Positions 18,636 through 50,637 of a stretch of 64,000 bases of DNA are shown here, one piece after another; within the stretch, counting starts at the first letter, position 1; the number at the start of each line of letters is the position of its first letter. Origin of the DNA: Diphasiastrum complanatum (taxonomy: Eukaryota; Streptophyta; Lycopodiopsida; Lycopodiales; Lycopodiaceae). The translations under genes and the position numbers were made by a program. The DNA lies in assembly GCA_029204225.1 (NCBI GenBank), contig MU832042.1, positions 26,233-90,232 on the forward strand. The letters are read 5' to 3'. Below the pieces are notes generated by a model. That model was not told the DNA's origin. It saw only the letters and a program-made list of their open reading frames with translations, and did no database searches.

Positions 18636-20444
18636 TCACAAAATTTGTTCTCTCTCCACTATGGAATGAGCAGGTTGCTTGTTCACTCCTCTTTTGTCCA
18701 TTGACTGTCTTAAATTGACTTTTTCATTCCACCTGCCAGCTGCAGCATACATGTTTGAGAGCATCACATAAGCAGCAGATTCTTGCGGTTGCAATTGAAA
18801 AATATGTGCAGTGACGGATTCTGCTAACTCCAAATTGCCATGCACTTTACAAGCCCCAAGCAAAGCCTTCCACAGCTTCACGTCAGGTGAAAGTGGCATT
18901 GTTGTCAGGTAGTTATATGCCTCTTGCAAACGACCAGAACGACCAAACAAATCGATCATACAGCCATAATGCTCCAACATTGGGGTAAGCTTGTATTCAA
19001 TAAACATGGATTCAAATAGAGAGCATCCTTCATCCAACAAACCCACATGGCTGCACCCAGTAAGAACACTTACAAATGTCACCTCATCTGGTTCTATGCT
19101 TTCATGCTGCATCAGCCTAAATAAATGAAATGCCTCAGCACCATCTCCATGCGTTGTGTAGGATGCGATCATGGCAGTCCAAGAAATGGTGTCGCGTTCA
19201 GGCATTTCATCAAAAACTTTGCGTGCATCTTTCAAACTACCACATTTCCCATACATATCAATTAGAGCATTGCTCACAAAGATGTCTTTCTCAAAACCTG
19301 CATCCAGGATGTCAGCATGGGCCTGCTTTCCTTCTTGTAGGGCTGCAGTGCTGGCACAAGCATTAAGAAGTGAGACAAAGGTCACCTTGTCTGGCTTCAG
19401 GCCTTCCTGCTTCATTCTTTCACAAAGTTCAATAGCCTCTTTGAACTTTTTATGCTTAACAAATCCTGCAGTTATTGTTGTCCATGATATGACGTCTCTT
19501 CTGGGTATTGCCATGAGTACATCACGTGCCTGGTCCAAACAACCACATTTCGCATACAAATTAATGAGCGCATTTCCCACGAAGATGTCAGAAAGTAACC
19601 CACATTCAAGAATTTCTGCATGGACTTGCTTTCCATACTCTAGGGCTTTTAGATTAGCACATGCATTGAGAGCATACACAAAGGCTAGTCCATCTGCTTT
19701 CAGACCTTCCCGTTTCATTTGATGAAACAGTTTTAAAGCCTCCTTGCTATCTCCATGCTTGATGGATCCACCAATTATGGTTGTAAAAGAAATAACATCT
19801 CTTCTATTCATTGAACCAAAAACTTCATGCGCATCCCTTGGACTGTGACACTTAATATACATGTCAAGAAGAGCATTCAAAACAAAAACGTCAGAGCCAT
19901 ATCCAGAGTTGACAACATCAATGTGAATCTGCTTTCCCTGCTCAAGAGCTCCTGCATTAGCACATGCCATGAGAAGACTAACAAAGGTTCTACCATCTGG
20001 TTTCAAACATTCAATTTTCATCTGCTTCAACAGCATCAATGCTGATTCGTAATTGCCTTGTTTTGCATATCCTGCAATGAGTGCATTCCATGAGGTTAAA
20101 GTCCGATTTGGCATGTTGACAAAGACATTCAATGCATCCACCAAACCATCACATCTGGTGTACATGCTCACAAGGGTATTTGCCACAAAGATGTTGGATT
20201 CAAACCCAAGCTCTACAACATGTGCGTGCACTTGCTTTCCATCTTCCAATGCTTTCATTTTGCCACACTCTTGCAAAAGACGAACATATGTGAAAGAAAT
20301 AGCCTTTGTATCCTGAGAATCCATCAGATTCAAATGCTGCAATGCCTTCTCCAAACTTCCCTGCTTGTAAAAGTTAGTCACTTTCTTGACAGCCTCCGCA
20401 ATTGTATGAGAACAACGCACAGCTAATTTTTCAATTTGCACCAT
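18636..20444 (-). CDS. PLS-class pentatricopeptide repeat protein with E-type C-terminus
   Basis: This is an intact, intronless 602-residue ORF. In plants such proteins bind organellar RNA and guide C-to-U editing or processing in chloroplasts or mitochondria. About four successive blocks of roughly 100 residues are visible, each with the P-L-S signature: a GKQVHA-type segment, then DIFVGNALINLYAKCG-type, then DVISWTTI-type, then an MKQEGLKPDKVTFVSLL-type segment. After them comes an E-type region (LWKALLGACKVHGNLELAE, AAYVMLSNMYAAAGRW). The protein ends a few residues beyond where E2 would start and has no DYW deaminase domain, so editing would need a partner in trans. An in-frame TAG stands seven codons before the ATG, which supports the start. 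The N-terminus is not an obvious transit peptide by eye. It is the only clearly intact host gene in the window. Confidence 0.93.
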   Translation of the reverse strand: MVQIEKLAVRCSHTIAEAVKKVTNFYKQGSLEKALQHLNLMDSQDTKAISFTYVRLLQECGKMKALEDGKQVHAHVVELGFESNIFVANTLVSMYTRCDGLVDALNVFVNMPNRTLTSWNALIAGYAKQGNYESALMLLKQMKIECLKPDGRTFVSLLMACANAGALEQGKQIHIDVVNSGYGSDVFVLNALLDMYIKCHSPRDAHEVFGSMNRRDVISFTTIIGGSIKHGDSKEALKLFHQMKREGLKADGLAFVYALNACANLKALEYGKQVHAEILECGLLSDIFVGNALINLYAKCGCLDQARDVLMAIPRRDVISWTTITAGFVKHKKFKEAIELCERMKQEGLKPDKVTFVSLLNACASTAALQEGKQAHADILDAGFEKDIFVSNALIDMYGKCGSLKDARKVFDEMPERDTISWTAMIASYTTHGDGAEAFHLFRLMQHESIEPDEVTFVSVLTGCSHVGLLDEGCSLFESMFIEYKLTPMLEHYGCMIDLFGRSGRLQEAYNYLTTMPLSPDVKLWKALLGACKVHGNLELAESVTAHIFQLQPQESAAYVMLSNMYAAAGRWNEKVNLRQSMDKRGVNKQPAHSIVEREQIL

Positions 20445-20465
20445 ATAATCCTTGTAATTGTCTAA

Positions 20466-32181: not shown

Positions 32182-32280
32182 GCTTCCTCCTTGTGAATAT
32201 GAGCTATGGGGATTTCCTTTGCTAGGTCTCACACAAGAACAGATATAGCAAATATCCACACACAATACAAAGGAGGACGC

Positions 32281-32760
32281 GTGGGCAAAAATAAAATTTG
32301 CGTGGATATAGTCGTGGATTGGCGTGGATATACGCGTGGATTATCCACGTGTGGATGTTCCACGCAAATGTCTTTTCCAGCAGCAGATTGGCCGGATGTC
32401 ATGAAATTCAAAATGCGTGGATTGTTCACGCGTGGATTATCCACGCCAAGTCCGACTACCGGCAACTGGACAAACCTCCGACACCCGGAGCCGAAAATAA
32501 GAATTCTAATTTTGTGTGGATAATCCACGCCATAATAAAAATAAAATAAAAAAGGCTCGGCTTTTGCGTGGATACTGCATGGATAATTATCCACGCGTGA
32601 TTTATCCACGTGAAATTCGCTTTATCCACGCAAAATCCAGAGTGTTGAGGCCGTGGATACCGCGTGGATAATTTTTTTTTAATATCCACGCGGTATCCAC
32701 GCGAAAAGGTTTCTGGAATTTGTGTGGATTATCCACGTGTGGATAATTCATGCAAATTTT
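32281..32760. repeat. cluster of GCGTGGATAATCCACGC-type palindromes
   Basis: Within 480 bp at least 17 copies of the half-site GTGGAT/ATCCAC occur, many joined head to head as perfect or near-perfect palindromes (for example GCGTGGATTATCCACGC). Two related clusters lie at 34540-34620 and 42995-43370, and the composite GTGGATGTTCCACGC occurs in all three. Dense direct and inverted short motifs near element ends are typical of CACTA subterminal repeats, where the element's own protein binds. That role is inference. Confidence 0.85.
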
Positions 32761-33514
32761 TTTGTCCAAAAAAAAATCATTTGGCACGAACCAAGATGTG
32801 GTTCGCTCCGAAACTAGAGGTGACTTTCTAGTTTTGTGTTTGTGTGTGAGAGAGAAAAGGAGAGTATAAATGGGAGTGAGAATGAGATGAGGATAAATGT
32901 GAGTGAGAAGATTGATAGTGTTTAGGATTTTTAGTTCATTGATGGATGTTAATAGTATGTGTTTTGTGATCATAAGTTTTAAGATCTTTTTTGTTTGTGA
33001 TGTAGGTTTGGATATGAAATTGAGCTTTCATTGAAAGGATTCAAAGATCAAGTGCATGCAAAAGGAAAAGCAAAGATTGCAAAACAATGGAGATACAATA
33101 GTAAAGGTAAATTCACATTTATTTTGATTCATTTGATATTTAGTTGATAACTTAATGTGTTATCTATTTCCATTACTTTCCATTACTTTTTATTGTGCAT
33201 TCTAGCATGCAAATCATGTGCTAAAATAGATACATTGCATTGAATTCATCAATGGATACATTTGCATTGTATAGATGTGCATTAAATAGACTATACATTG
33301 CATTGAATACATCAATAGATGTATTTGCAATCAATAGATGTGCATTCAATAGAGTATACATTTGCATTCATGGATTAAAAATATATGCATTCAAAAATTT
33401 TGCAAGAATGATGTGATGCCAAAACATTATATTGATTGATTTAAAAACAAGTACATTGATGAGAGAATAAATTCTCTCTTCCTACATTGCCTTCTACAAG
33501 GTCTTACATTTAAT
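32761..33514 (+). other. non-coding stretch with one possible exon at 33006-33107
   Basis: An open stretch FGYEIELSLKGFKDQ... is bounded by TTTGTGATGTAG before and AAAG/GTAAATTC after, so it could be a plus-strand exon of about 100 bp. I found no partner exon. From 33180 to 33460 the DNA repeats ACATTGCATTGAAT/GCATTCAATAGA-type phrases several times (TTGCATT, TGTGCATT), a degenerate AT-rich repeat. Confidence 0.35.
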
Positions 33515-34229
33515 TTAAAAACCTCTACTCATTATCACTTCTTCCCTCCTCGCCTCCTTCATCTTGTTGGTGTCCACATCATCAAACTCCCCTTCACTTT
33601 CATTCACGTTCTCTTCCACATTTTCTTCCACATCACGAACACTTGAAGTTATAGAGCCTCTCTACAGAATAGAATCAAAGATTTTATTAAATTGAGATTA
33701 AACTTGTAAACCACAAAGTAAACAATCACAAAACAATAAAGGTTAAGAGTTTACGATTGGAAACAATCCATGGGATTTCATAAAAGTCTTAAGACCGGCA
33801 TATCCATGATCGTAACCTTGCTTGTACTCCGCGGCGGTCATGTGTCTTCCAAAATCACTAAGCTACATTCAACAAAAAAAACATAATTTAGCAATACAAT
33901 ATAGTTTAGCAATAAAAAAACATTAACAATATCACTACAAAAATAGAATCATATTAAAAAATATTGCACTTACAAATTGGGCCTCTAGATTGCCCCTTCC
34001 TCCCGATCCCAAGTGACTTTGGCCATGTTTTAAGAGCTTCTCGGCAGCGGCCCTACGTTGTTGTTCATACTTTTGGGAATTGTTTTGCAACTATTCTCTT
34101 TACACCTTCCTCCAATCCCTTTTGGAGCACCATCCAGGCTTTGTGGGATTCTTGGGATTCCTCACGGCTCTTCTCATCAATTGCCTTTTGTGTCGAATCC
34201 AAAGGCACATTGTATTCAAGGCCCAAGTC
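33515..34229 (-). pseudogene. unknown three-exon gene between palindrome clusters
   Basis: Three minus-strand blocks have good splice signals. Exon A is 34229-33974 (after TTTAGTAG, before GTAAGTG). Exon B is 33862-33755 (after GAATGTAG, before GTAAAC). Exon C is 33661-33515, after TTCTGTAG and ending in TAA. They encode a charged protein: a long helix with QESHKAWMVLQKGLEEGVK, a segment EQQRRAAAEKLLKHGQ, then HMTAAEYKQGYDHGYAGLK, and an acidic tail with repeated VEENV. A shift within exon A near 34075-34090 breaks it. I do not recognise the family. Its place between two clusters of the same palindromes suggests it belongs to the same transposon family, perhaps as an accessory protein. The upstream exons and start are not identified. 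Confidence 0.5.
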
Positions 34230-34539
34230 CTACTAAAAGCATTGAAGAGAGAATTCTTAATACAAAGTCTCTATTATTTTATTCTTGTCTTCAAGCGATT
34301 GGAAGGACCAAAAGCAAGAACAAAGAAGATCAATAGAGCAAGCAAAAACAAGAGCACAATCACTAGCAATGAAGAGCAACCAAAAGCAAGCAAGCAAACA
34401 AGCAAGATTTATAGAGCTTAGAGAGCAATAGCAAGCAAGGGCACTAAACACTAGATTAGAAAACCTATAAAACTTGAAAGCAAAAGAAGAAGAGCAAGAA
34501 TGCTCACGGAAATGCCATTTTATTGGCATTCAAATTTCG

Positions 34540-34620
34540 TGTGGATTATCCACGCAAAAGTTATCCACGCGTGGATAATCCACGTGATATCTATGCGTGG
34601 ATGTTCCACGCGTTTTTTTC
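34540..34620. repeat. second palindrome cluster
   Basis: GTGTGGATTATCCACGC, TTATCCACGCGTGGATAATC, CCACGTGATATC and GCGTGGATGTTCCACGCG occur within 80 bp. This is the same motif family as 32281-32760 and 42995-43370. It lies about 1.1 kb before the first exon of the SET/TNP2 unit, where the left end of a CACTA element would be expected. Confidence 0.85.
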
Positions 34621-34699
34621 CTCTCTTGGCACGTGAGAGAGTCCCCCACATGGGCTTGCATGCTTCAAATGTCATTCAATATTCTCATAATCTTTTCTA

Positions 34700-35680
34700 G
34701 ATTTTATGAAAATATTTTATTGTAGGATTTTACATAAAATATATTTTTTAATATGATGGAATGTAAAAAAAATCAATTCAAAGATCATTATGGTAGTATT
34801 TAATTGTTAAAACTAGTTTTATATTGTTCTAAATTTTATTTTTCTTGAGATTTGACATACAAGACAAAATCATGAAATAAGAAATAGTACATATTATTAT
34901 TAAACAAGCAATTTGACAAGTTTTTTAAAATTTTATGACATAATATTATGTCAAATCGGTGATGTCATAAAACATTTAGTTTATTAATAATCTAGGTGTC
35001 ATAGATATGATATAATTTGATGACATAATTACATGGTCAAATAATTTTTTTTGGTTTTGTCATGTGGCCTCTTAAATGGTTGCATGGGATCATTTAGATT
35101 CATGATCAGAAGCATTTATGTTATATTCAGGACCTTATTGATATGTGACCTATATGATAAATCTTTTTAATTGTTGATGTGTGACTTATATAACCTTATA
35201 TGAAATCATAGTAATTAGTTGAAATATCATTTAGCATTGTAATTAAGATGTTGATCAATGGTGTGTTATCTAGTAAATGATTTCTTGCATACAAAGCAAC
35301 CATAGATAGAAAGAGCGAATGCATATTGCTCGTCATGAGATACCATGGCACACTAGGCCAATCCAAAGAGATTTACCTTGAGATCATCAATCATCTTAGA
35401 CAAGAGTTTAAACTGAGAGCTTCGAACATTAACTGCTATGTGGTCTTTAAATTAGTTGAGATAGGCCTGCACACACTATCTACTGATGTCTAACATTTGT
35501 CAGTATGAACATCATTTTGATTGCTCGTCATGTGTTGCCCCACCCAAGCAATTTTCTTGATAGCAATGTCATTAGAATATTAGATTTACATTAAGCATAA
35601 GTAGAATATACATGGATTAGATGTTGGCATGTCTTTAACAAATTTTATTATATTTGTTCAGAACATACGGTCTCATAATG
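34700..35680. other. AT-rich DNA upstream of the SET/TNP2 unit
   Basis: No gene. It contains a perfect 18-bp palindrome TGACATAATATTATGTCA at 34936-34953, and further TGTCAT/ATGACA phrases to about 35070. If 34540-34620 is the left end of the element, this stretch would hold its promoter. Confidence 0.45.
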
Positions 35681-35723
35681 ATTACTTATGATGTGGTATA
35701 GAGTAGCTGGCTACAATGTGTAT

Positions 35724-37420
35724 ATGTCATCGACGATGTCATCATCAGATAGCGATTCATCTCATGATCGCAACAACAGGTATATATTGTTATTGATATT
35801 GACATCAATTGCACTTTTTTTTTTATTTAAATATGAGTGTATGATTTTTCTTGCAAATTTATTCTTACAATGACATTTGATTGGAATTATGAATTCTAGG
35901 AAAATTATCGTACCTCCACGTGATTTAGAAAAAGAAAAAAGAATTGAGCTCTATCACAAAAAAAAAAGGAGCAATCAAGACTAAAGTACAATGAACAACT
36001 ATTGACTGGTTCATCTTCGAGCTCTTCCATCAGTCAACGTAGATCGCCTATTGATCCATCACATGTATGTATATTGATTTATGTCATAATTTTTTTATTT
36101 GTAATAGTGATGTAATCCGATTTGCTCTATGAATATAGTATATTGCTCTTTGGAAAGCCAAGACACCACACCATCACAAATGAAGGTTGAAAATACACTA
36201 AATGTACAAAGACTATTTTGTCAATTTTTGTCACATGTTACAATTCGTCACATGTTAGAATTTGTCAATTTTTACTTGAATGACACTGAAAGAATTTGTG
36301 CAATTTGCAATTGGATTATTGGGCCAGTTTCAACCAGAATATGATGAGAGGATACCATGTACATGCACACAATGCAAAGGCCTTAGGATTTGGACAAGGA
36401 GGATTGCCAACGATCATATTTGGGCCAATGGAATGCACACAGAGAATCCAAGAGTACAAGAGGTAAACTCTTTAAAGTGTTTTTTGGAAATGCTTTAATC
36501 TTTGACCCTCATGACACTTCAAGTATAGTTTGGCCAATAAATATTGGGCGATAGGATGAGTGTCACGATACTTTGAAGTAAATCTCTCACTTGATTCTAA
36601 AAGGAAAAATGCCTTGTGATTCAATCCATGTCTCCAAATCTCTAGAACGTTCTTACCACCCAACCACACCTATCCTAGATGTTGCACATGAGTCCTCCAC
36701 GATACTCCACATGGATTCCACAAACTTGACCACCCTTTAAAAAAGAGAACACGTCTTGGACGTATTGTGACTAGTTTGAAAGATAATTGCAAATTACTAC
36801 GCACTGTTGATGTGTCAAAAGACATTCTAGGTTCTTTGTCTGACCTTCCTCTTCCACCTAACTTGCAACCATTAGTAAAAACTTTTATTAGAAGTAGATA
36901 TTCATGTTGGCCACTCCAATCACCATTACCATTAAATGGAACACCATTTACGTATTGGAGTCGAATGTACATGATCATGCCTAGTGAACACTTTCTTGAA
37001 GCTGGTTTGGGCCTTTTTGCATTGAGTAGTATTGAGGTCCCTCTAAATAGTGTTGTGACATTGATGCCATATGCAGGACCTCAAGACAATTGGGGTGATT
37101 GGCATGCTTTGTGTCGTCACCAATGGAGAATGCAAATATATGGCTTGAATTCAAATGCTTATTCTTTAGAAGAGCAACGCATGCAAGGAGGCAACATTTC
37201 AAGGGCAAATCGTACATACATTGATGGATGTCCAGATGTGCATGGAAACATTGCTGCATATATAAATAGTTCCATTGGCCACCCTCTATTGACGAATTGT
37301 GATTTTGAAGAACGCACCAATGGAAAAGAAGAATATTTTACTAGGAATGTAAAGGGCACTTATGTAATGGTTTGTGCCACTAGATCTATCAGGTTTGGAG
37401 AGGAATTGTTCATCAAATAG
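35724..37420 (+). pseudogene. SET-domain gene with transposase-associated N-terminus, in CACTA unit
   Basis: The proposed exons are 35724-35779 (Ser/Asp-rich), 35900-36064 (basic then Ser-rich, with a shift at an A-run), 36139-36462, and one from about 36517 to 37420. Exon 3 carries a Cys/His motif, RIPCTCTQCKG followed about 15 residues later by HIWANGM. This is the pattern of the transposase-associated domain at the front of TNP2 proteins. The last exon encodes a SET-type fold (protein-lysine methyltransferases use S-adenosylmethionine): GLGLFALSSI, LMPYAG, NIAAYINSSIGHPLLTN in place of the usual NHSC motif, and finally RFGEELFIK. The Cys of NHSC is not kept, so activity is doubtful. Three in-frame TGA codons lie at about 36556, 36618 and 36690 before the ATG at 36767. 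TNP2 follows on the same strand. Confidence 0.72.
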
Positions 37421-37771
37421 TTTCAACCGTCCTCTACCCAAATGTTTGCAAAAGACAATAAGTCAAATGTGAAGATTTAAATTTTGTTGATATGTAGAAA
37501 TGTATAATCCATGCATCTTGATTGTATTTGGTTTGTGTCATTAAATATGTCAAATGTTAGGAGTATTATTCGTCATTTGCCTAGATTAAATGTTAGGAGC
37601 ATTATTCGTCTTTGAGTTCATTGAATGTTAACAAGTTGAAAAGACAAATCTGTCTAATAGATACATTGGTATGTTAATACTTTTTAAAATAAGAGGTAAT
37701 TTATATTCATATGCAACATTTAGATCTATCAAGTATTGGGAGGAAATGTTTATCAAGCATTGTTTCAACCT
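37361..37771 (+). repeat. duplicated SET C-terminal end and small repeats
   Basis: The last 70 bp of the SET frame (ATAGATCTATCAGGTTTGGA region, 37361-37432) recur in diverged form at 37697-37771, giving RSIKYWEEMFIKH where the first copy has RSIRFGEELFIK. Between them AAATGTTAGGAG.ATTATTCGTC occurs twice about 38 bp apart (37551-37612). These are remnants of a partial duplication between the SET and TNP2 parts. Confidence 0.7.
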
Positions 37772-37779
37772 ACTTCTTG

Positions 37780-40700
37780 TTATTTTGATATATAGGATTC
37801 TTCATCCTCATTTAGTGTTAGAGACAATAATCCTCGTAATGGTTGACGTAGACGACGAATGCAATACAACAGACTACATATAAAGCAATTACCTTGTCGT
37901 CTATGTCAAGGCTTAAAAGAGATGATGGAAATTGATGAGCGCATTAATCAAGAGACTAATGCATCTGAATCTAGCTCATCTAGATCTACTTCTTCGCAAA
38001 CAAGTTCCAACGATGAAAATGAGCTTCCAATGAATGATGATTTGAAGTCATGGGAGACATGTTGGATGATATGTACGAGAACAATATTGCAGCTAGACAC
38101 AATGAACAAGATGAGGAGGCACTTTTGTCTAAAGAAGAAAGAAAATTGCGAGAAGAATCAAAGACCGCATTGTATCCTGGAGCAAAGACATCTCGTTTGG
38201 CGACTTCTCTACTTCTATTAAATCTTCAAGCCAAATATAGATGGAGTAACCAAAGCCTCACATCATTATTTGAGTAAATTTTTTTTCATCTACTTGTCAT
38301 TTTTGCTTTGAAACAAAATTTACAATTTGGACATTGAGTAATATTTTTTTTACAATGACTTCTTTTGTCATGTACAGACTATTGAAAAACAAAATTCTCC
38401 CAAAAGAGAATGTCATGCCTGAGACAAGAGATGAGGCACGAAAGATGTTGACTAACATCGGGATGGACTACAATATCATGCATGTCCAAAAGATTGTATT
38501 TTATATCGAAAAAAGTACGAATCACTCAAGAAATGTCCCATTTGTGATACTCCTCGATATAGAGATGATTTGTAAGGGGCAACCACTCCGTGCAAAGTTT
38601 TACGACATTTTCCAGTAATTCCACAATTGCAACGTTTATTTCGTTGTAAATCTCTTACACAACTTATGGACTGGCATGCACACCATACCTCTACGGATGG
38701 GATGATGAGGGTACCTTCAGATTCACCTGCATGGAAACACATCAACAAAGAGTATCCAAGCTTTGCCAATGAGTCAAGAAATGTGAGATTTGGTCTTGCA
38801 ACAGATGGTGTGAACCTCTTTGGTGTACGAGCAACTACATGCTCCATTTGGCATGTTTTCTTGGTAAATTATAATATTTCTCCTTGGTTGAGTACAAAAA
38901 AGGGACATATTATGTTGGCACTTTTAATTCTTGGCCAATGCAAGATTAAGAACATAGATGTGTATCTTGAGTCGCTTATTGACGAGTTAGAAGATTTGTG
39001 GAAGGGGATAAAAGCATATGACATTTTGTGCCCCTTACATGAGAGGGAGTTTACAATACATGTCCTTGTAATGTGGACAATGCATGACTATCCAAAATTA
39101 GGTGAATGCTCAAGTAATCATTCAAACAATGTCTATCTTGTGTACTAGGAGTTTGTTTACAGTTACATACAACTAGTAATTCTTGACATTTACATGATAT
39201 ACTACAATGGCTATAATTATTCATTGACATATACTTTTTTTAATAGTGATTGATAGTATCCATTTGTTGGACAGGCTTTCAAATGGCTGAAAAAAATGCT
39301 TATTTTATACGAGGGCCAAATCGTGTGGGAAGATACTCTTTTAGTCTCAAAAAAGTGGTTTATGAAAATCATCGTAATTCAAAAACACTCATAGAAGAGG
39401 TTTTGGAGGAAGAGTTGAGAGAGAGATGTCTCCAAAGAGGATGTTCGTGAAAGATTGGCGAATACTATGAGAAGAATCTCAAGCAAAGCCAATCGATGGT
39501 ATGAAAAGATTATCTATATTTCATCGTTTGGAATATTGGAATAACTTTTTGATTAATCACCTACTTGATCTCATGCACATATTTAAAAATGTGGGTGAAT
39601 CTATTTGGAAACACTTGATTGGTGAAAAAGATACCATTGCTGCAAGGCACGATCTAAAAGAATCAAATACCAAAAAAGAATATTGAATAAAGGATGGTGA
39701 AGATCATGCTCCAAAAGTACCTTGGACATTCACTAAAGAGGAGCTTAACCATGTGCGCTCCATTATTCATGACATTAGAACACCAACTGGTTTTGTCCAT
39801 TCTCTATGGTCATCATTCACAGTGGATGGAAAGTTGCAAGGTCTCAAATCTCATGATTGGCTGAAGATGATTCAATTCATCTATCCATTTTCAATTCATG
39901 GGTGCTTGTCAAAAGATATTTGTGAGACCATATACAAACTATCAATCATTGTCAGGTATTTACATGTATTTGGTGCATTTTTCTATTTAGTATTTATTGA
40001 TTGAAAATTCAAATAGACATAAAATGGATTGAATATGTTGCAGATGGATGTGTTCAAAAGAAATCCATGAGCTGGATCTTTGCAAGAGACATGAGGATAT
40101 GGTGGAGATTGTGTGCATGTTTGAGAGATATTTTTTGACTTCCATCATCGACTCACAAGTGCATTTATTGGTGCACTTGGTTGAAGAAGTTTCTATTGCT
40201 GGTCCAGTGCACACTAGGTATAAGTGCATAAATTATCTTTTGCATGTGTATTTAAACTAAATCAATTGATACATGAACTCATTATATAAAACACTTATTT
40301 CTAACCATTTGTGACTTTTTAGGTGGATGTTCTTTATGGAAAGGTACATGAAAGTCTTCAAGATTTTGTGTGTCAAAAGGCAAGGCCTGAAGGTAGCATG
40401 TCAGAGGGATGGTTAGTACATGAATCTCTCTTTTATGTTACTGAAATTTTGCACCAACTACATCCATCTGCTCCACTATTGTGGCGTGATGAAGAAGCTG
40501 AAGAGGTAACTAGTGAAAAACCTTAGGGGATGGGAAAGGTCCATAGCTGGCACCCTTCCAACGAGAAAAAATTTCTACATTCATGCTTTATAATTGTGGA
40601 GTTATGGATAAATGGTTAAACCTATATGAAGAAGAAAAAAAAGAGGACTTTGTCTAGAAAGCGCCAACGACAGAATAGAGGTAGACACATGGTCTCAAGT

Positions 40701-41745
40701 TCACATGATCTTGAGCCATTGCCCAAGCAATGCACTATAGAGTGGATGCATGACACACTACAAAAAGCAACAAAAGAGGGACAAAAAATATCAAACGCAG
40801 AATGTGACTTTGCAAGAGGATGCGAATGAAAGGTATTATTCTTTAGATACTTTATTATTAGAACATTCTTGTTTATAACAATATTTGCTTAATCATTTTG
40901 AAATACCATGTTCATTCACAATAATTATTTATGAGATTCATGTTTGTCATGTGGCAGTGCAAAATGTATAATGCTATAAGGGCTTTTGGTTTTCACTTTC
41001 GTGTTGAAAGGATTGATAACAAGAGACGCACACACGATTGTGGTGTAATAGCATCTTTCCAACAAGAAAGTCAAAACAGTGCACGAGATCGGAATCCCAT
41101 CTCAGAAGATATAGAATACGTAGGAACTATACAAAATATTTATGATGTGTCATTTGGTGAAAGTGGACACTATTTTTTATTTGATGTGAAATGGTTCAAG
41201 GTAGTTTGTAGAGGGCCAAATGCAACCGTAAAATCGGATCCAAGTGGATTTTTTGTGATTGATTCATCAAAAACATTGGTCATGGAGTCCTTTGACACAT
41301 TGGTGTTGCCTCGTCACTGTGAGCAAGTGCACATGCTATGCTATAATGTTTTTCATTTTATTGCAAGTGACTTCAGTATTTGAGTTTTCGATATGTTCTA
41401 AAATAGTGATTTTTGCAGGGATTTTTTCAACCAGATCGACTAAACAAGATATGATGGTTTGTAGTTCAAGTTGAACCACGTTCACGACGAGTATTTGAGG
41501 GTGCAAATGTTGAGAATGAAATGGAAAACCTTCATTTTAACTATGAGATTGAGCTACCTAGAGATGTAATAATTGTCAAACCATACTTGAAGCACCTACT
41601 TCCATAGATGTTGAGAATAGAAATTCTAATAGTCAAGATGATGAAATAATTTTTGAAAGTGAGAGCGATGATGAAAATCAACTAAGAGGAGATAAATTGC
41701 AACATGATGTCGCTGATGAAATTGATTCTTGTAACTTTGAATAAA
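37780..41745 (+). pseudogene. CACTA TNP2-type transposase, multi-exon, broken
   Basis: This is the main transposase of the En/Spm class, which cuts at CACTA-type ends. In order I see an acidic linker, LYPGAKTSRLATSLLLLNLQ (exon end near 38276), KILPKENVMPETR, the Cys cluster before KVLRHFPVIPQLQRLF, then DWHAHHTS, SPAWKHINKEYPSFANESRN, FGLATDGVNLFG, the YNISPWL segment, and TMHDYPKLGE. From 39501 come HRLEYWNNFLINHLLDLMHI, a DUF4218-type block (LKSHDWLKMIQF, RPEGSMSEGWLVHESL) and a DUF4216-type block (40958-41330; IYDVSFGESGHYFLFDVKWF). A short acidic C-terminus ends at about 41743. Several shifts and stops are visible (near 38495, 38575, 39450, 39680 and 41453), so this copy is dead, but all regions are present. 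Confidence 0.87.
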
Positions 41746-42990
41746 AATTGATTATTGCAATTCTGAATGAAATTGATTCTTGCAATACTTTCACATGATT
41801 GCTATTTAGCCAAAATAGAGTCTCATTTATGGTCAAGTAAGTGAAAAGAATAGACATAGTTTGACTTCAATCCCATTTTTTTGGAGATAATGTCGGTGAA
41901 GATAGATGTGCGGCTTCATGTTCTAAGAAAATTCTCATTTTTTAACAAATGTTGCAAAGGCAATAAATCACTAAAAGCATGTGAGTTAATGAAATCACCA
42001 CCACAAACTATGACAAAATCAAGTGTTTCATCATAGTCAATCTGCTTGAATTGAACATATCCCTTGGCAACTAGTCTTGTTTTATAATTGCTCACACTAC
42101 CATCTCGATTAGATTTGATCTTAAAGACCCATTTGCAAACAGTAACATTTTGTATCTTTGATGGAGGATCAATAATTTTACAAGTATCTCAAACAATGCA
42201 TCATGTACTCACCTCACTTTTCATTACATCAAATCACTCTTTTGTTGCTACAGTTTCATTCACACTTGAAGGAACATCATCAAACTTAAGGTAGTAATAA
42301 GGGCAATAAAAATTAAACAATCATCAACTTGTAATTGCTTCTATCTTCTTTGTATTTGAGCATTGATGGTTGCATTTGGGCTCTGATACCATGTTAAAAT
42401 CAAAGGTTATGAACCTCATTTGGATACTAAAACCTTGAAAAAACATCAAAGGTTTCACTTATATCTAATAGATAGAAAACTAGCACACAATTCAACCTAT
42501 TTTGCATCTAATTGGCAAAGGCTTTTGAATATCACAATAAAACTAGAAATAATTGATCTTCACATCTTGTCACACACGTGGAAAGTATAATACTTTGTTC
42601 AGATTCAGATCTATTCATTAGACACAAAAAATATCACATTCATCATTCATCAATTTCTCATTAAAGAGCAAACTTGCCAAAATCACCATCTCTTGATAAT
42701 CTCTCGAAGTAAGTACAAAATGAGCTCTCAATCCATATCAAATGATCTCGGATATGAGATTAGGTAGAGTGCCATTAGGGTAGATCCTAAACACCATGAT
42801 ATAATTCATTTTAGAAAAATATTTATCTAACTAATTCCATTTCATTATGAACATGCAAAAAAAAAAAAATCATCATAATATAATTCACTTTAAAAAAAAT
42901 ATATATAGCCTAATTATAATATAATTCACTTTGGAAATATATTTATTTAACTAATTTCATGTCATTATCAACATGCAAAAAAAAACAAAA
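41746..42990 (-). mobile_element. truncated Copia insertion: RT start, PBS, LTR
   Basis: The minus strand between about 42290 and 41985 encodes the N-terminal end of a Copia RT region (CKWVFKIKSNRDGS, NYKTRLVAKGY). Right next to it, at 42380-42391, the plus strand reads GCTCTGATACCA, the complement of the Copia primer-binding site, followed at 42392 by TGTTAAAATC, the LTR edge. Gag, protease and integrase between PBS and RT are missing. The far LTR end is unclear. This piece lies between TNP2 and the third palindrome cluster, so it probably inserted into the CACTA element. Confidence 0.7.
42797..42986. repeat. two direct copies of a 70-bp AT-rich block
   Basis: ATATAATTCATTTTAGAAAA...AACATGCAAAAAAA (42797-42866) is repeated with differences at 42911-42986, both ending in AACATGC plus an A-run. 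It could be a duplicated target region beside the Copia insertion or just a local duplication. Confidence 0.6.
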
Positions 42991-42994
42991 AAAA

Positions 42995-43370
42995 TGCGTG
43001 GATAATCCATGCAAAAGATATCCACGCGTGGATATCTTTAACTTTCGGTCTCGTTTGGTGAACAACTTGAAATTTGCGTGGATAATCCACGCGTGGATTA
43101 TCCACGCCAATACTACTTTCCGGCGCTGCCAACCTTCCCTCCCAAACAGTTGCCGGAATTTTTAAAATTCAATTTTGCGTGGATAATCCACGCGCATAAA
43201 TTTTTCGACGCCGTGTCAGAAAAACACCAGTAGACTGGTCGGAGGCGTGTTAAAAATTTTTTTGGCGTGGATAATCCACATGTGGATGTTCCATGCAAAC
43301 AAAATTTCGAAAAATCGACTAAGGGTCGGGTCTTGCATGGATACTTTGCGTGGATAAACACAGAGTTTTT
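42995..43370. repeat. third palindrome cluster, 3' of TNP2
   Basis: Contains GCGTGGATAATCCATGC, ATCCACGCGTGGATAT, GCGTGGATAATCCACGCG followed by TGGATTATCCACGCC, a further GCGTGGATAATCCACGCG, and ACATGTGGATGTTCCATGC. Between them lies CCGGCGCTGCC...GTTGCCGGAATTT, resembling the GCCGG/CCGGCAACTGG inserts in the first cluster (32380-32480). The layout suggests a common ancestor. It is where the right subterminal region of the CACTA element would be expected. Confidence 0.85.
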
Positions 43371-43499
43371 TAGTTGTGTCATGTGCCTTATCTACATGAA
43401 TTCATGCTCATTTCCATTGCCATGTACTCTTTCTTTCATTTCTATTGAGATTCTATCGAGATCCTTGTGTTTCTAGCTTTCTATGGATATGCTATTTTG

Positions 43500-46855: not shown

Positions 46856-49460
46856 CTATATGGACTTGAACATTGATCTTGGTATTACTCCAAGATTGGC
46901 TCTATGCTTGATGAAGGAACTTTTGCTCAAAGGTTTGGTGAGCATATCAGCAATACAAGATGATGTGTCGATGTGCTCCAAGTAAATTTCCCCTCCAATG
47001 AGCTTCTCTCTCATGAAGTGATGTGCAACTTCTATATGCTTGCTCCTTGCATGGAATATCGGGTTGTTGGCAAGGGCTTGGGCCGAAATGTTGTCAAACA
47101 TGATCATAGGTAGATCCTCTTCCATGATTATCTTTAGCTCCACTAGCAGCCTCTTGATCCAAAGCACTTCCTTTGTTGTTGTAGTGAGCGCCTTGTACTC
47201 AGTTTCACATGATGAGAGTGATACAGTATCTTGCTTTTTGGAAAGCCAAGATATCAACTTTCCTCCAAGATATATGACATAAGCACTTGTAGATTTTCGA
47301 TCTGCTCTATCACTTGCAAAATCCGAGTCAGAATAACCAACAATAGAAAGATCTTCACTTTTATACAATAAACCATAATCAAAAGTTGAAGATATATATA
47401 TAAGTACTCTCTTGGCCATTTTCCAATGATAACTAGTAGGATTTTGCATAGCCTGGCTCAACTTATGAACACTAAAGCTTATGTCAGGTCTAGTTATTGT
47501 GAGCCAAATTAAGGAGCCTATAAGACGCCTAAAAAGTGTGATGTCCACGAAGGATCTTTCATCACCTTTGTTAGGGTCTTTTACATTTTTCTCCATAGGA
47601 GTTTCTATACTCTTACCATCTAACATATTGAGCTTTTTTAACATTGAAATAGCATACTTGGATTGACATACAAAAGCTTTATCTTTAAGAAAGTCAATCT
47701 CTAATCCTAGAATGTAGTGAATTTTTCCAAGATCTTGCATCTTGAGTTCTTTTCCAAGTGCAATCTTGGTTTCCTCAACTAACTTGATACAACTTCCTAT
47801 TAGAATGATATCATCAACATAAATAAGAAGGATGACAATATCTTTATCAGAAAATTTGACATATAAGGAAGGATCATAGTTACTAAGATTAAATCCTAGT
47901 GACTCAAGAAAGGTGTTAAGTCGAGAATACCATGACCTTGGAGCTTGCTTTACTCCATATAAACTTTTGAAGAGCAAGCAAACTTTGTCTTTGTCATTGA
48001 TGAACCCAATAGGCTCATCCATATAAATCTCTTCTTCTAGATATCCATTTAGAAATGCATTAGAGACATCTAGTTGAAGAACTTGCCAATTGAAAAAACA
48101 AGCAACAGAAATTATGATTGTACTGATACCATCTTTGCAACTGGAGCAAAAGTCTCCTATAATCAAGTCCATAAACTTGAGCAAAACCTTTAGCACAAAG
48201 TCTAGCCTTGTACTTGTTGATTGTGCCATCTTGATTATACTTGACTCGAAAAACCCACTTGCAACCAATGGCGTGCTTGTTGGATGGAAGATCCACAAGC
48301 TCCCATGTCTTATTGGCCATAAAAGCATCATATTCCTCCTTCATGGCAAGGTACCATTCCTTCAAGTTGAGTGCATCATATACATCCTTTGGCTCCTCAT
48401 GAGAAATAAAATAAGCACAATTAGTGGAGTTGATTTCCACTTGCTTGCCTCTATCTTCATAGGTAAGCCTCCTAGGCTCGGATCTTTCTCTTTGAGATCT
48501 CCTTGGTGAAAAGATTTGAGGTGACTCCTCCTCAATTCTCGGCCCCATCTCTCCATGATAGTCTTCAAGGGTGATGATTGGAGTATCTTTGTGAGAATTT
48601 TTGAACTCGCCCTCCTCAAGAATGTATTTTTGATCCTCATGGAATATAACATCCCTACTCTCAATTGTAGTTGAGGTAGAGGGAACATAGATTCTGTAAG
48701 CTTTCTTGTTGGATGCATATCCAACCATGATCCCTTTAATCGAGTTAGGATCATCTCTTTTCCCTGTTTCCAAGGGCACATGAACAAAGCAAGCACAACC
48801 AAAAATTCTAAGGTGATCTACCTTAGGTTTCTTCTTAAACAAGACTTCAAAAGGTGATTTTCCAACAAGTGCATTGTGAGGTAATCTATTGCACAAATAG
48901 TTTGCACAATTTATAGCTTCACCCCAATATTCAATAGGCAAAGAACCTTCAACTCGAATTGCTTTAGCATATTCACATAAAGATCTGTTTTTCCTCTCAG
49001 CAACTCCATTTTGAGATGGAGAATAAGCACATGAAAGCTCTCTCTTTATTCCTTCACCTTCATAGTATTCATGAAACTTGTTGGAGACGTATTCACCTCC
49101 TCCATCACATCTTAAAACTTTAACTTTGAATGAAAACTGTTTCTCAACATAAGCTTTGAAGATTAGGAAGTGATTAAAAACCATAGCCTTTAAAGAAAGT
49201 AGATACAACCAAGTATATCTAGTAAAGTCATCAATAAAGGTGACAAAACATGTTGCACCACCAATACTTTTAGAAGAGGAAAAATGTACATCTGAGTGTA
49301 TAAGCTCTAAAGGATGAGTAGTCTTTATAAAAGACTTCTGATATGGCTTTATGTGTGATTTTGCAATGGTAAAGTTAGGATGCCCTAATCTTCTATGCCA
49401 CAACTCCTCCTTAGATAACAAAGCAACTTCACAAAGATTTTCATTCTCATAAGAATTCAA
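46856..49460 (-). pseudogene. Copia pol: integrase, RT and RNase H
   Basis: From 49460 downward: pre-integrase ELWHRRLGHPNF; integrase core HSDVHFSS, TFIDDFTRYTWLY, YSPSQNGVAERKNRSLCEY; then the C-terminal region FGCACFVHVP. RT begins in the same frame (KWVFRVKYNQDG), but a shift near 48150 moves it into the second frame (46856-48331). There QLDVSNAFLNG, SLYGVKQAPRSW and YVDDIILIG (catalytic pair intact) are followed by RNase H YSDSDFASD, SSCETEYKAL and FDN, and the terminal HARSKHIEVAHHF. The frame ends 18 bp before the 3' LTR. Apart from the shift the enzyme motifs look well kept. Confidence 0.93.
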
Positions 49461-49503
49461 CTTGAAAATTCCACCACATCTAGATCCATCAGCTAGGATC
49501 TCA

Positions 49504-50637
49504 TCATTTTTTTTTGATAAAGCAAGTATTGGAGTTGAACTTTACATCACAACCATTATCAAGCAACTTTTCCACACTAATCAAGTTCTTTGTAAGTTTT
49601 GGAATGAAAAGAACATTAGAAAGTGCAAGAACTTTTGAAGAAGCAAGTTTCAATGGAATGTTGCCAATTCCTTCTATAGAGCACTCATGATCATTAGCAG
49701 TGTAAATAGATCTCTTAAGTCCTTTGTAAGGTGCAATTGAGTCAAATGACTCCTTTGAATAGCACATATGTGAAGAAGCTCCACTATCTATGTACCAAGC
49801 TCCATCTTTCTTGAAAGGTGATGAAGAAAAACTGGACACCATAAGTGATCCTTCTCCATCACTTGCAACAGAATCTTCTTCAATTTCTTTGGAGAGATTA
49901 GCTTGCTTGAGTTGGTTTTTCTTCTTAAAGCAATTAGAGGCATAGTGCCCCTTCTTGCCACAGAAGAAACACTTCTCTTTCTTCTTCTTGGTCTTTGAAA
50001 TAGAAGGATGAGATAAATCATCCTCTCCACCATGCTCGAGTTTGTTCATCCTGGAAAGTCTATAGCTTTGCCTAGATTCTTCAGAAATAAGAATTCCTTG
50101 GAGAGTTTCTAGATTAGGCAACTCCTCCTTAATGGAAAAAGACTGAACAAGATTATCATAGTCATTTCTTAGGCCATTTAAAATGACTTGAACTAGCTCA
50201 TCTTAATTAATGGTAACACCAACACAGGAAAGCTCTCTATGTAAATCTTTAACTCTCAGAACATATTTTGATGCACTCTCTTCACTTCTTTGGAAACTTT
50301 GAAAAATCTGATTTTTAAGAGTGAGTATTCTAGAAGTATTCTTTGCTTCATAGATGGACTTAAGTGCATCCCAAGCTTCTTTTGTTGTAGTGCAAGATCC
50401 TATCTCTCTCAGAATTTCATTAGATACATTCATCTTAATGAAATGTATAGCCATTCTAGCTCTCTTCCTATACTTAGGAATTTCAGCCTGTGCTTGAGGC
50501 TCCTCCTCAACACCAAGCACAATGTCCATAACATCCTGGAGTATCAAAATAGACTCCATTCTGAACTTCCAAATTGAGTAATTAGAAGTGTTTAGTCTTT
50601 CATTAGCTTCTAGAAGATATCCTCCCAGAGGTGACAT
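49504..50637 (-). pseudogene. Copia gag with zinc knuckle and protease
   Basis: Minus-strand gag starts at 50637 (LNTSNYSIWKFRMESIL, UBN2-type) and is interrupted by a TAA at 50203 before continuing to an ATG-led frame at 50121. This contains the CCHC knuckle CFFCGKKGHYASNC and the aspartic protease motif WYIDSGASSHM. The frame stops at about 49504 after an A-run, just before the integrase part. Gag forms the particle and protease cleaves the polyprotein in active elements. Confidence 0.93.

Follow-up and report, generated by a model that had tools for sequence, protein, structure and literature searches.

A SET-type frame between the TAD-like and TNP2 exons of a high-copy CACTA transposon family in the clubmoss Diphasiastrum complanatum

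The window, a stretch of 64,000 nucleotides that is part of contig C524, contains a whole CACTA-superfamily element of 11,147 bp on the plus strand (32232..43378) with the termini CACAA...TTGTG. The element is flanked by a target-site duplication (TSD), with the left copy TCA at 32229..32231 and the right copy TCA at 43379..43381. Its left end, CACAAGAACACATATAGCAAATATCCACGC..., is common to the window/C7, C23 and C5 copies, and its right end, ...GCGTGGATAAACACAGAGTTTTTTAGTTGTG, is common to the window/C7, C23, C4 and C9 copies; outside both ends the copies diverge. The independent C23 copy is flanked by TAT on either side, and the duplications were thus checked in two independent insertions. 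The copy at G000:C7:26.6 Mb has the same flanks as the window copy, and the two are therefore one insertion; C524 and C7 look like alternative haplotypes. The ends of the window element agree with the CACTA superfamily in showing CAC...GTG with a 3-bp TSD (window and C23), a combination that is counted as EnSpm in the available passages of PMC12730594. Subterminal repeat arrays lie at both ends, and the transposase is of the TNP2 (Transposase_21) type. The exact CACTA core is absent from the terminal inverted repeat, where the termini read CACAAG... and CACAAC.... In the 1.74 Gb of genome searched, 514 3' ends (up to one mismatch) and 540 5' ends (up to two mismatches) are found, while the reversed control patterns give 0. 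The 79 left and 100 right ends among those listed form 8 correctly ordered pairs within 20 kb and 4 otherwise arranged. The listed element at C6:65430111-65443755 has both of its ends and encloses a SET place as well as a TNP2 place. Two short elements also carry both family ends (G000:C8:41990770-41991122, about 0.35 kb, and G000:C4:50635838-50638243, about 2.4 kb) and are likely non-autonomous derivatives.

Palindromic repeats of the GCGTGGATAATCCACGC type form three arrays in the element. The 5' subterminal array (32287..32760) has counterparts close to the 5' end in C7, C23, C13 and C5, and the 3' subterminal array (42984..43360) is also present in C7, C23 and C4. An inner array of the same repeat (34526..34621) separates the minus-strand ORF from the plus-strand gene or genes, with the motif at the corresponding place in C23, C13, C5, C2 and C16. 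Its position between divergent genes makes it a possible regulatory site. The exact GTGGATNNTCCAC palindrome occurs at 12 sites on the plus strand of the window, all 12 inside the element. With up to one mismatch on both strands there are 31 matches against 0.88 expected in the whole window, and 28 of these are inside the element. The arrays are similar in several of the ten other copies; C8 is without them. Elsewhere in the window, the frames at 46856-50202 (minus strand) read as a putative copia-type polyprotein, and a 609-aa frame at 18636-20465 (minus strand) reads like a PPR protein. The segment 26001-28000 shows a strong GC skew of 0.315, with G-rich tandem arrays at 27.7-28.0 kb.

The minus-strand frames at 33935..34490 are the remnant of a second, divergently oriented ORF with no known domain. 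This ORF (MSSSGRSSGRSSGRPSRRRAREEP...) is a 242-aa frame in copy C5, is seen in five of the five other copies listed, and has an open frame at L035:6773-7498 (plus strand). It has no Pfam match and may correspond to the second protein of CACTA elements. On the plus strand, open frames at 35724..36066 give putative upstream exons, Ser/Asp-rich and then basic, with limits that we infer; the second part is present in 5/5 and the first part in 3/5 of the other copies listed. They are followed by the transposase-associated (TAD-like) exon at 36280..36462, which ends in phase 0 at a GAG/GTAAAC donor. The PF13963 match here covers 36280-36498 with E 2.1e-4 and 21.9 bits, below the gathering score of 27.7. 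An earlier note on this DNA placed a TAD-like exon before a SET domain; the order and strand stand, and the profile match stays below threshold. The same note took 36139-37420 as one translation, which does not hold, since these letters contain a TAD part at 36280-36462 and a SET part that begins only at 36692.

The SET-domain exon, broken in the window copy, occupies 36692..37417. A relic duplicate of its 3' end (37721..37756; direct repeat D12, 83%) sits just before the TNP2 exon and is also found in 10 other aligned copies, 11 sequences in all. The first TNP2 exon, a linker (37796..38277), starts in phase 0 after the TATATAG acceptor and contains a stop in the window copy. Next come the TNP2 transposase core (38576..39148; PF02992, E 4.8e-47), the middle part of the transposase (39471..40004, conserved in copies), the DUF4218 region (40033..40526) and the C-terminal part (40925..41383, also conserved in copies). 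PF13960 matches the DUF4218 region twice, with E 1.8e-12 at 40033-40260 and E 6.9e-4 for a second match below the gathering score. The TAD-like, SET, TNP2 and DUF4218 parts are all on the plus strand in that order, and TNP2 follows SET as had been proposed. Long (GA)n arrays with RERERE frames precede the SET exon in L029 (5400-6710) and L033 (5900-6710); none is seen between TAD and SET in the window.

The Pfam profile search places PF00856 (SET) at 36692-37417 (plus strand) with E 4.9e-05 and 24.1 bits, above the gathering score of 22.4, in agreement with the SET-type domain first read from the ORF. Two open-frame copies score 26.4 and 22.7 bits and the relative P0002 scores 24.4 bits, above the same cut-off, while the distant relatives P0003, P0006 and P0007 reach 12.4-14.8 bits and stay below it. 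Compared with other copies, the window frame is cut short at either end. Nine copies show where the SET exon begins, together with its splice acceptor; neither is found in the window or in C7, which represent the same insertion. Frames in other copies reach up to about 347 aa and end in ...ELFIKYSFNRPLPKCLQKTISQM and a stop. An open frame of 347 aa without a stop inside the match is present at 13 of the best 150 SET places, out of 3079 candidates. Beyond ELFIK the other copies continue to YSFNRPLPKCLQKTISQM and then stop; the window frame stops directly after ELFIK, one residue short of a Tyr conserved in relatives. GLGL, N..INS and GEELF..Y are conserved in the relatives; at 32–49% identity the N..N, GxEL and Tyr columns are invariant and GLGL is nearly so. 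We take these to correspond to the GxG, N(H)S and C-terminal Tyr motifs of SET domains, and the usual His of the NHS motif is missing from INSS. The conserved columns fit an active enzyme, as far as residues can indicate one; they are no proof of activity.

Searches for more distant likeness gave little. The PDB sequence search with the window ORF and with profile A1 returned no match up to E = 1, PADLOC and NCBIfam gave no match, and there is no relative among 39 pattern matches in viral contigs. Two AlphaFold2 predictions, with pLDDT of 31 and 44.5, are too weak to use. The closest named protein is P0001, a hypothetical protein of D. complanatum with 87% identity. P0003, P0006 and P0007, all from short contigs, are similar SET-like proteins whose N-terminus is rich in His; they may represent a further SET family that has multiplied and is perhaps mobile. 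When P0002 was the query, the best 142 of 2178 candidates were at most 50% identical and no closer single gene stood out, a result that leaves room for a host donor of the SET exon.

The arrangement of SET and TNP2 recurs across the genome. The SET query gave 3079 and the TNP2 query 5327 candidates at first look, and the best 150 of each were scored, the SET places at 82–100% identity; 3079, 5327 and the 2178 of the P0002 search are all first-look counts, with 150, 150 and 142 places scored. A listed SET place lies within 5 kb of 38 of the best 150 TNP2 places, where 0.13 pairs are expected. This is the genome-wide excess over random expectation that the earlier note would have looked for. In all 38 pairs among the places listed, SET is on the same strand as TNP2 and upstream of it by 968–2078 bp. 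The other 112 scored TNP2 places have no SET among the places listed. Twelve of these, the highest-scoring unmatched places on chromosome-size contigs rather than a random draw, were read up to 2.5 kb upstream: nine carry a complete or partial SET and three have none. Some contig pairs in the SET and TNP2 lists repeat each other, and the counts are therefore somewhat inflated.

Ten copies inspected over 17 kb, including C7 with the window's own insertion, are alike in having TAD ahead of SET and, on the strand of SET, the CACTA linker behind it. The TAD piece of C9 is displaced to about 6 kb, and the TNP2 core is in place in nine of the ten, with C2 as the exception and C8 partial. At 15 of 20 loci (window included, some contigs repeated) the linker or TNP2 is within 1.5 kb of SET; at the other five, L004-L008, neither is found within that distance. 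One neighbouring element has lost most of its SET exon by deletion. Copies without SET thus exist, as seen at the three empty TNP2 places and in this deleted neighbour. Element ends give a similar picture: 100 of the 514 right ends were compared with 114 SET places (77 of 150 and 37 of 142), and 13 pairs fall within 12 kb against 0.39 expected, 12 of them with a shared strand, and in 11 of those 12 the order is the expected one. Since the SET-TNP2 order recurs genome-wide, the arrangement in the window is not a matter of chance. The SET frame is a component of a high-copy family of CACTA (En/Spm, TNP2) transposons, where it recurs after the TAD-like exon and ahead of the TNP2 exons. The member of this family in the window is a broken copy.

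Selection was compared in recent and divergent copies. In the recent copies, SET (21 sequences) has an in-frame dN/dS of 0.65 against the consensus and 0.67 pairwise, with 0.62–0.65 in the other frames, and TNP2 (16 sequences) gives 1.17 and 1.07 in frame and 0.36–0.63 in the other frames. Neither set carries a signal of constraint, and differences from the SET consensus are even over the codon positions (160/183/172). The loci L003, L009, L011, L012, L020, L015, L017 and L019, which duplicate other copies or one another, were left out of this comparison, and L001 and L002 enter it as W and C7. The missing signal is what decay after insertion would give. Because the recent copies are uninformative, divergent copies were needed. 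Two are available, C4b on C4 and L058 on C1, each with a nucleotide identity of 75%. Against the first, the SET consensus gives dN 0.167, dS 1.016 and dN/dS 0.16 (95% 0.10–0.26), and against the second dN 0.170, dS 1.034 and dN/dS 0.16 (0.11–0.26); the other frames of the same copies range from 1.39 to 1.59. The codon-position differences are 40/35/87 and 43/38/97.

The transposase shows the same behavior. Its C-terminus in the C4 element has a dN/dS of 0.17 (0.09–0.28), compared with 1.97 and 1.03 in the other frames, and the TNP2 core of L058 has 0.08 (0.01–0.16), at a dS of 1.84 that is near saturation, compared with 1.26 and 3.16. L058 keeps the order SET, linker and TNP2 at 67–68%, 58% and 62% protein identity. 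In the C4 divergent copy, copia-like frames come after SET, and after those the C-terminal part of the transposase at 64% identity; no TNP2 core was found downstream of this SET copy. C4b and L058 look like one subfamily, and the selection result is therefore one split sampled twice. These substitution patterns show that SET and TNP2 travelled together for long and that both were kept functional, so that SET is a selected, co-inherited transposon gene. Purifying selection on both SET and transposase in a subfamily at dS of about 1 implies that the SET protein mattered to the propagation of the element. The earlier suggestion of a joint movement of SET part and element is now supported: the SET part sits in a single TSD-flanked element with matching subterminal arrays, it keeps a similar distance and orientation to TNP2 genome-wide, and both genes are under purifying selection in the divergent subfamily. 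That note had also named two outcomes as speaking against it, the lack of a significant SET match and SET paralogues with no association to TNP2 or element ends; both were looked for and neither was observed.

The splice sites bear on how the SET exon could be expressed. The GT of the TAD donor is kept in 10 of 11 sequences, in phase 0. The SET exon also begins in phase 0, after TTTTGCAG or TTTTGTAG, and its AG is kept in seven of the nine copies with an acceptor. The SET stop TGA is present in 11/11 aligned sequences, as is the AG of the TNP2 acceptor (TATATAG), again in phase 0. With phase 0 throughout, the SET exon would sit in the TAD-to-TNP2 intron and either junction would keep the frame. 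The predicted gene model is then one transcript with two splice outcomes. The shared TAD exon spliced to SET would give a DNA-binding TAD-SET protein ending at the SET stop, and the same exon spliced to TNP2 would give the transposase. Maize Spm provides a precedent, as PMC1636069, in the portion at hand, describes TnpA to TnpD as produced from one unit by alternative splicing.

SET could instead be an independent gene with its own promoter and start codon and no shared TAD exon, or its substrate could be the transposase or another non-histone protein, a reading that we regard as possible on balance but as the less probable one. It touches the gene model and the substrate only, and it overlaps with the best explanation. 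The proteins P0002 and P0010, both 272 aa and 47–49% identical to the SET frame, have no TAD part, and the D. complanatum annotation models P0001 as SET alone (232 aa). Both observations agree with a separate gene, whereas the conserved and in-phase TAD donor and SET acceptor point to splicing from the TAD exon.

Self-regulated silencing has plant precedents in Vandal/MuDR elements and in the TnpA of Spm. By analogy, the SET protein may be the element's own chromatin regulator, with a role like that of TnpA in En/Spm. It is predicted to be a lysine methyltransferase acting on element chromatin, perhaps aimed by the TAD at the subterminal and inner palindromes, and it would keep the element promoter expressible despite host silencing. 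In Spm, TNPA reactivates a methylated promoter, according to the part of PMC1636069 consulted. As past selection kept SET intact, the gene is probably of use to the element, either for its survival or for its escape from silencing. We infer the anti-silencing role, and likewise the substrate, the splicing and which way the effect goes. The joint explanation, a selected CACTA SET gene with TAD-SET and TAD-TNP2 splicing and a methyltransferase that keeps the element expressible, is the one we favor, with some confidence. A bolder form is only tentatively put forward: an autonomous plant CACTA family in which alternative splicing joins a shared DNA-binding exon either to the transposase or to a self-addressed SET enzyme, a methyltransferase binding the family's own palindromic arrays and rewriting the chromatin at these sites.

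The effect could also have the opposite sign. SET may act as an element-encoded repressor or copy-number regulator that sets repressive marks, either on its own element or at genomic targets, with less host damage or insertion steered into heterochromatin as the outcome instead of silencing being countered. The selection evidence fits either sign, the SET domain alone gives no direction, and the available passages of PMC1636069 describe Spm TNPA as activating methylated and repressing unmethylated promoters. A gene that only limits its own element should nevertheless be harder to maintain by element-level selection, and we consider a repressor rather improbable.

The SET exon might, on the other hand, be a passenger fragment, a host exon captured by Pack-CACTA-style transduplication and multiplied with the element while functionless for it. 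CACTA elements are reported to capture host exons in the sections available from PMC13317346 and PMC8978399, the recent copies show no selection signal and some TNP2 copies have no SET. Against this stand the in-frame purifying selection relative to the divergent subfamily, seen in both the dN/dS of SET and its codon-position differences and matched by 0.08–0.17 for the transposase, the 347-aa frames that are still open, and the same gene order in both subfamilies. A passenger is already disfavored by these data and we judge it unlikely. A chance neighborhood of a host SET gene family beside CACTA insertions is rejected as extremely improbable by the single TSD-flanked element, the recurrent order and orientation with 38 of the best 150 TNP2 places paired and 9/12 further places with SET, and the shared selection in the divergent subfamily.

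A selected SET gene of the element, as we favor it, has partial parallels in several known systems. With CACTA/En-Spm elements of plants the clubmoss element shares TNP2 (PF02992), the TAD-like and DUF4218 parts, CAC...GTG ends, the 3-bp TSD and the subterminal arrays; it differs in ending in CACAA rather than CACTA and in having a SET exon between TAD and TNP2 that is under purifying selection. SET in CACTA elements was not found in the open-access papers searched, and term look-ups in a 2026 gene-capture review and a CACTA survey returned no SET-carrying CACTA. The earlier statement that no CACTA case is known thus stands within that literature; for other DNA-transposon superfamilies SET is in print. 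PMC12730594, in the passages available, describes SET genes carried by HarbingerS and MuDR families of Phytophthora. These are also DNA transposons that encode a SET-type histone methyltransferase, but they belong to other superfamilies and to another kingdom, and the likeness is one of gene content. The clubmoss transposase is of the TNP2 and not of the Harbinger type.

The same passages report fungal DNA transposons, EnSpm among them, with a TET/JBP dioxygenase that is proposed to let them escape silencing (PMC12730594). They resemble the clubmoss element as EnSpm-type carriers of an epigenetic enzyme, but theirs acts on DNA methylation instead of protein methylation, and in fungi. DNMT-carrying retrotransposons of dinoflagellates and charophytes are likewise mobile elements with an acquired epigenetic methyltransferase (PMC5890265, in the part seen), though they are retrotransposons and the enzyme is a DNA methyltransferase. 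In accounts of SETMAR/Metnase of primates available in part, SET is also joined to a DNA transposase; this is a single host protein derived from the mariner-type Hsmar1 and not the gene of a multi-copy mobile element. Comparable in the way it works is TnpA-TnpD of maize Spm/En, with one transcription unit, alternative splicing and an element protein regulating its own epigenetic state. TnpA is not described as an enzyme in the portion of PMC1636069 at hand, whereas the clubmoss regulator would be a SET enzyme and its splicing is predicted. Plant element proteins regulating their own silencing are covered, for Vandal/MuDR and for TnpA of Spm, in the available parts of PMC12730594 and PMC1636069.

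At issue more widely is the extent to which transposons bring along chromatin enzymes of their own for dealing with silencing by the host. In the clubmoss, a non-seed plant, a SET gene with measurable past selection is part of a high-copy family. Some members of this family have SET and others in the same genome lack it, which makes the question directly testable. If the bolder form of the explanation is true, the hundreds or more copies of this family would amount to a self-directed epigenetic system inside the host.
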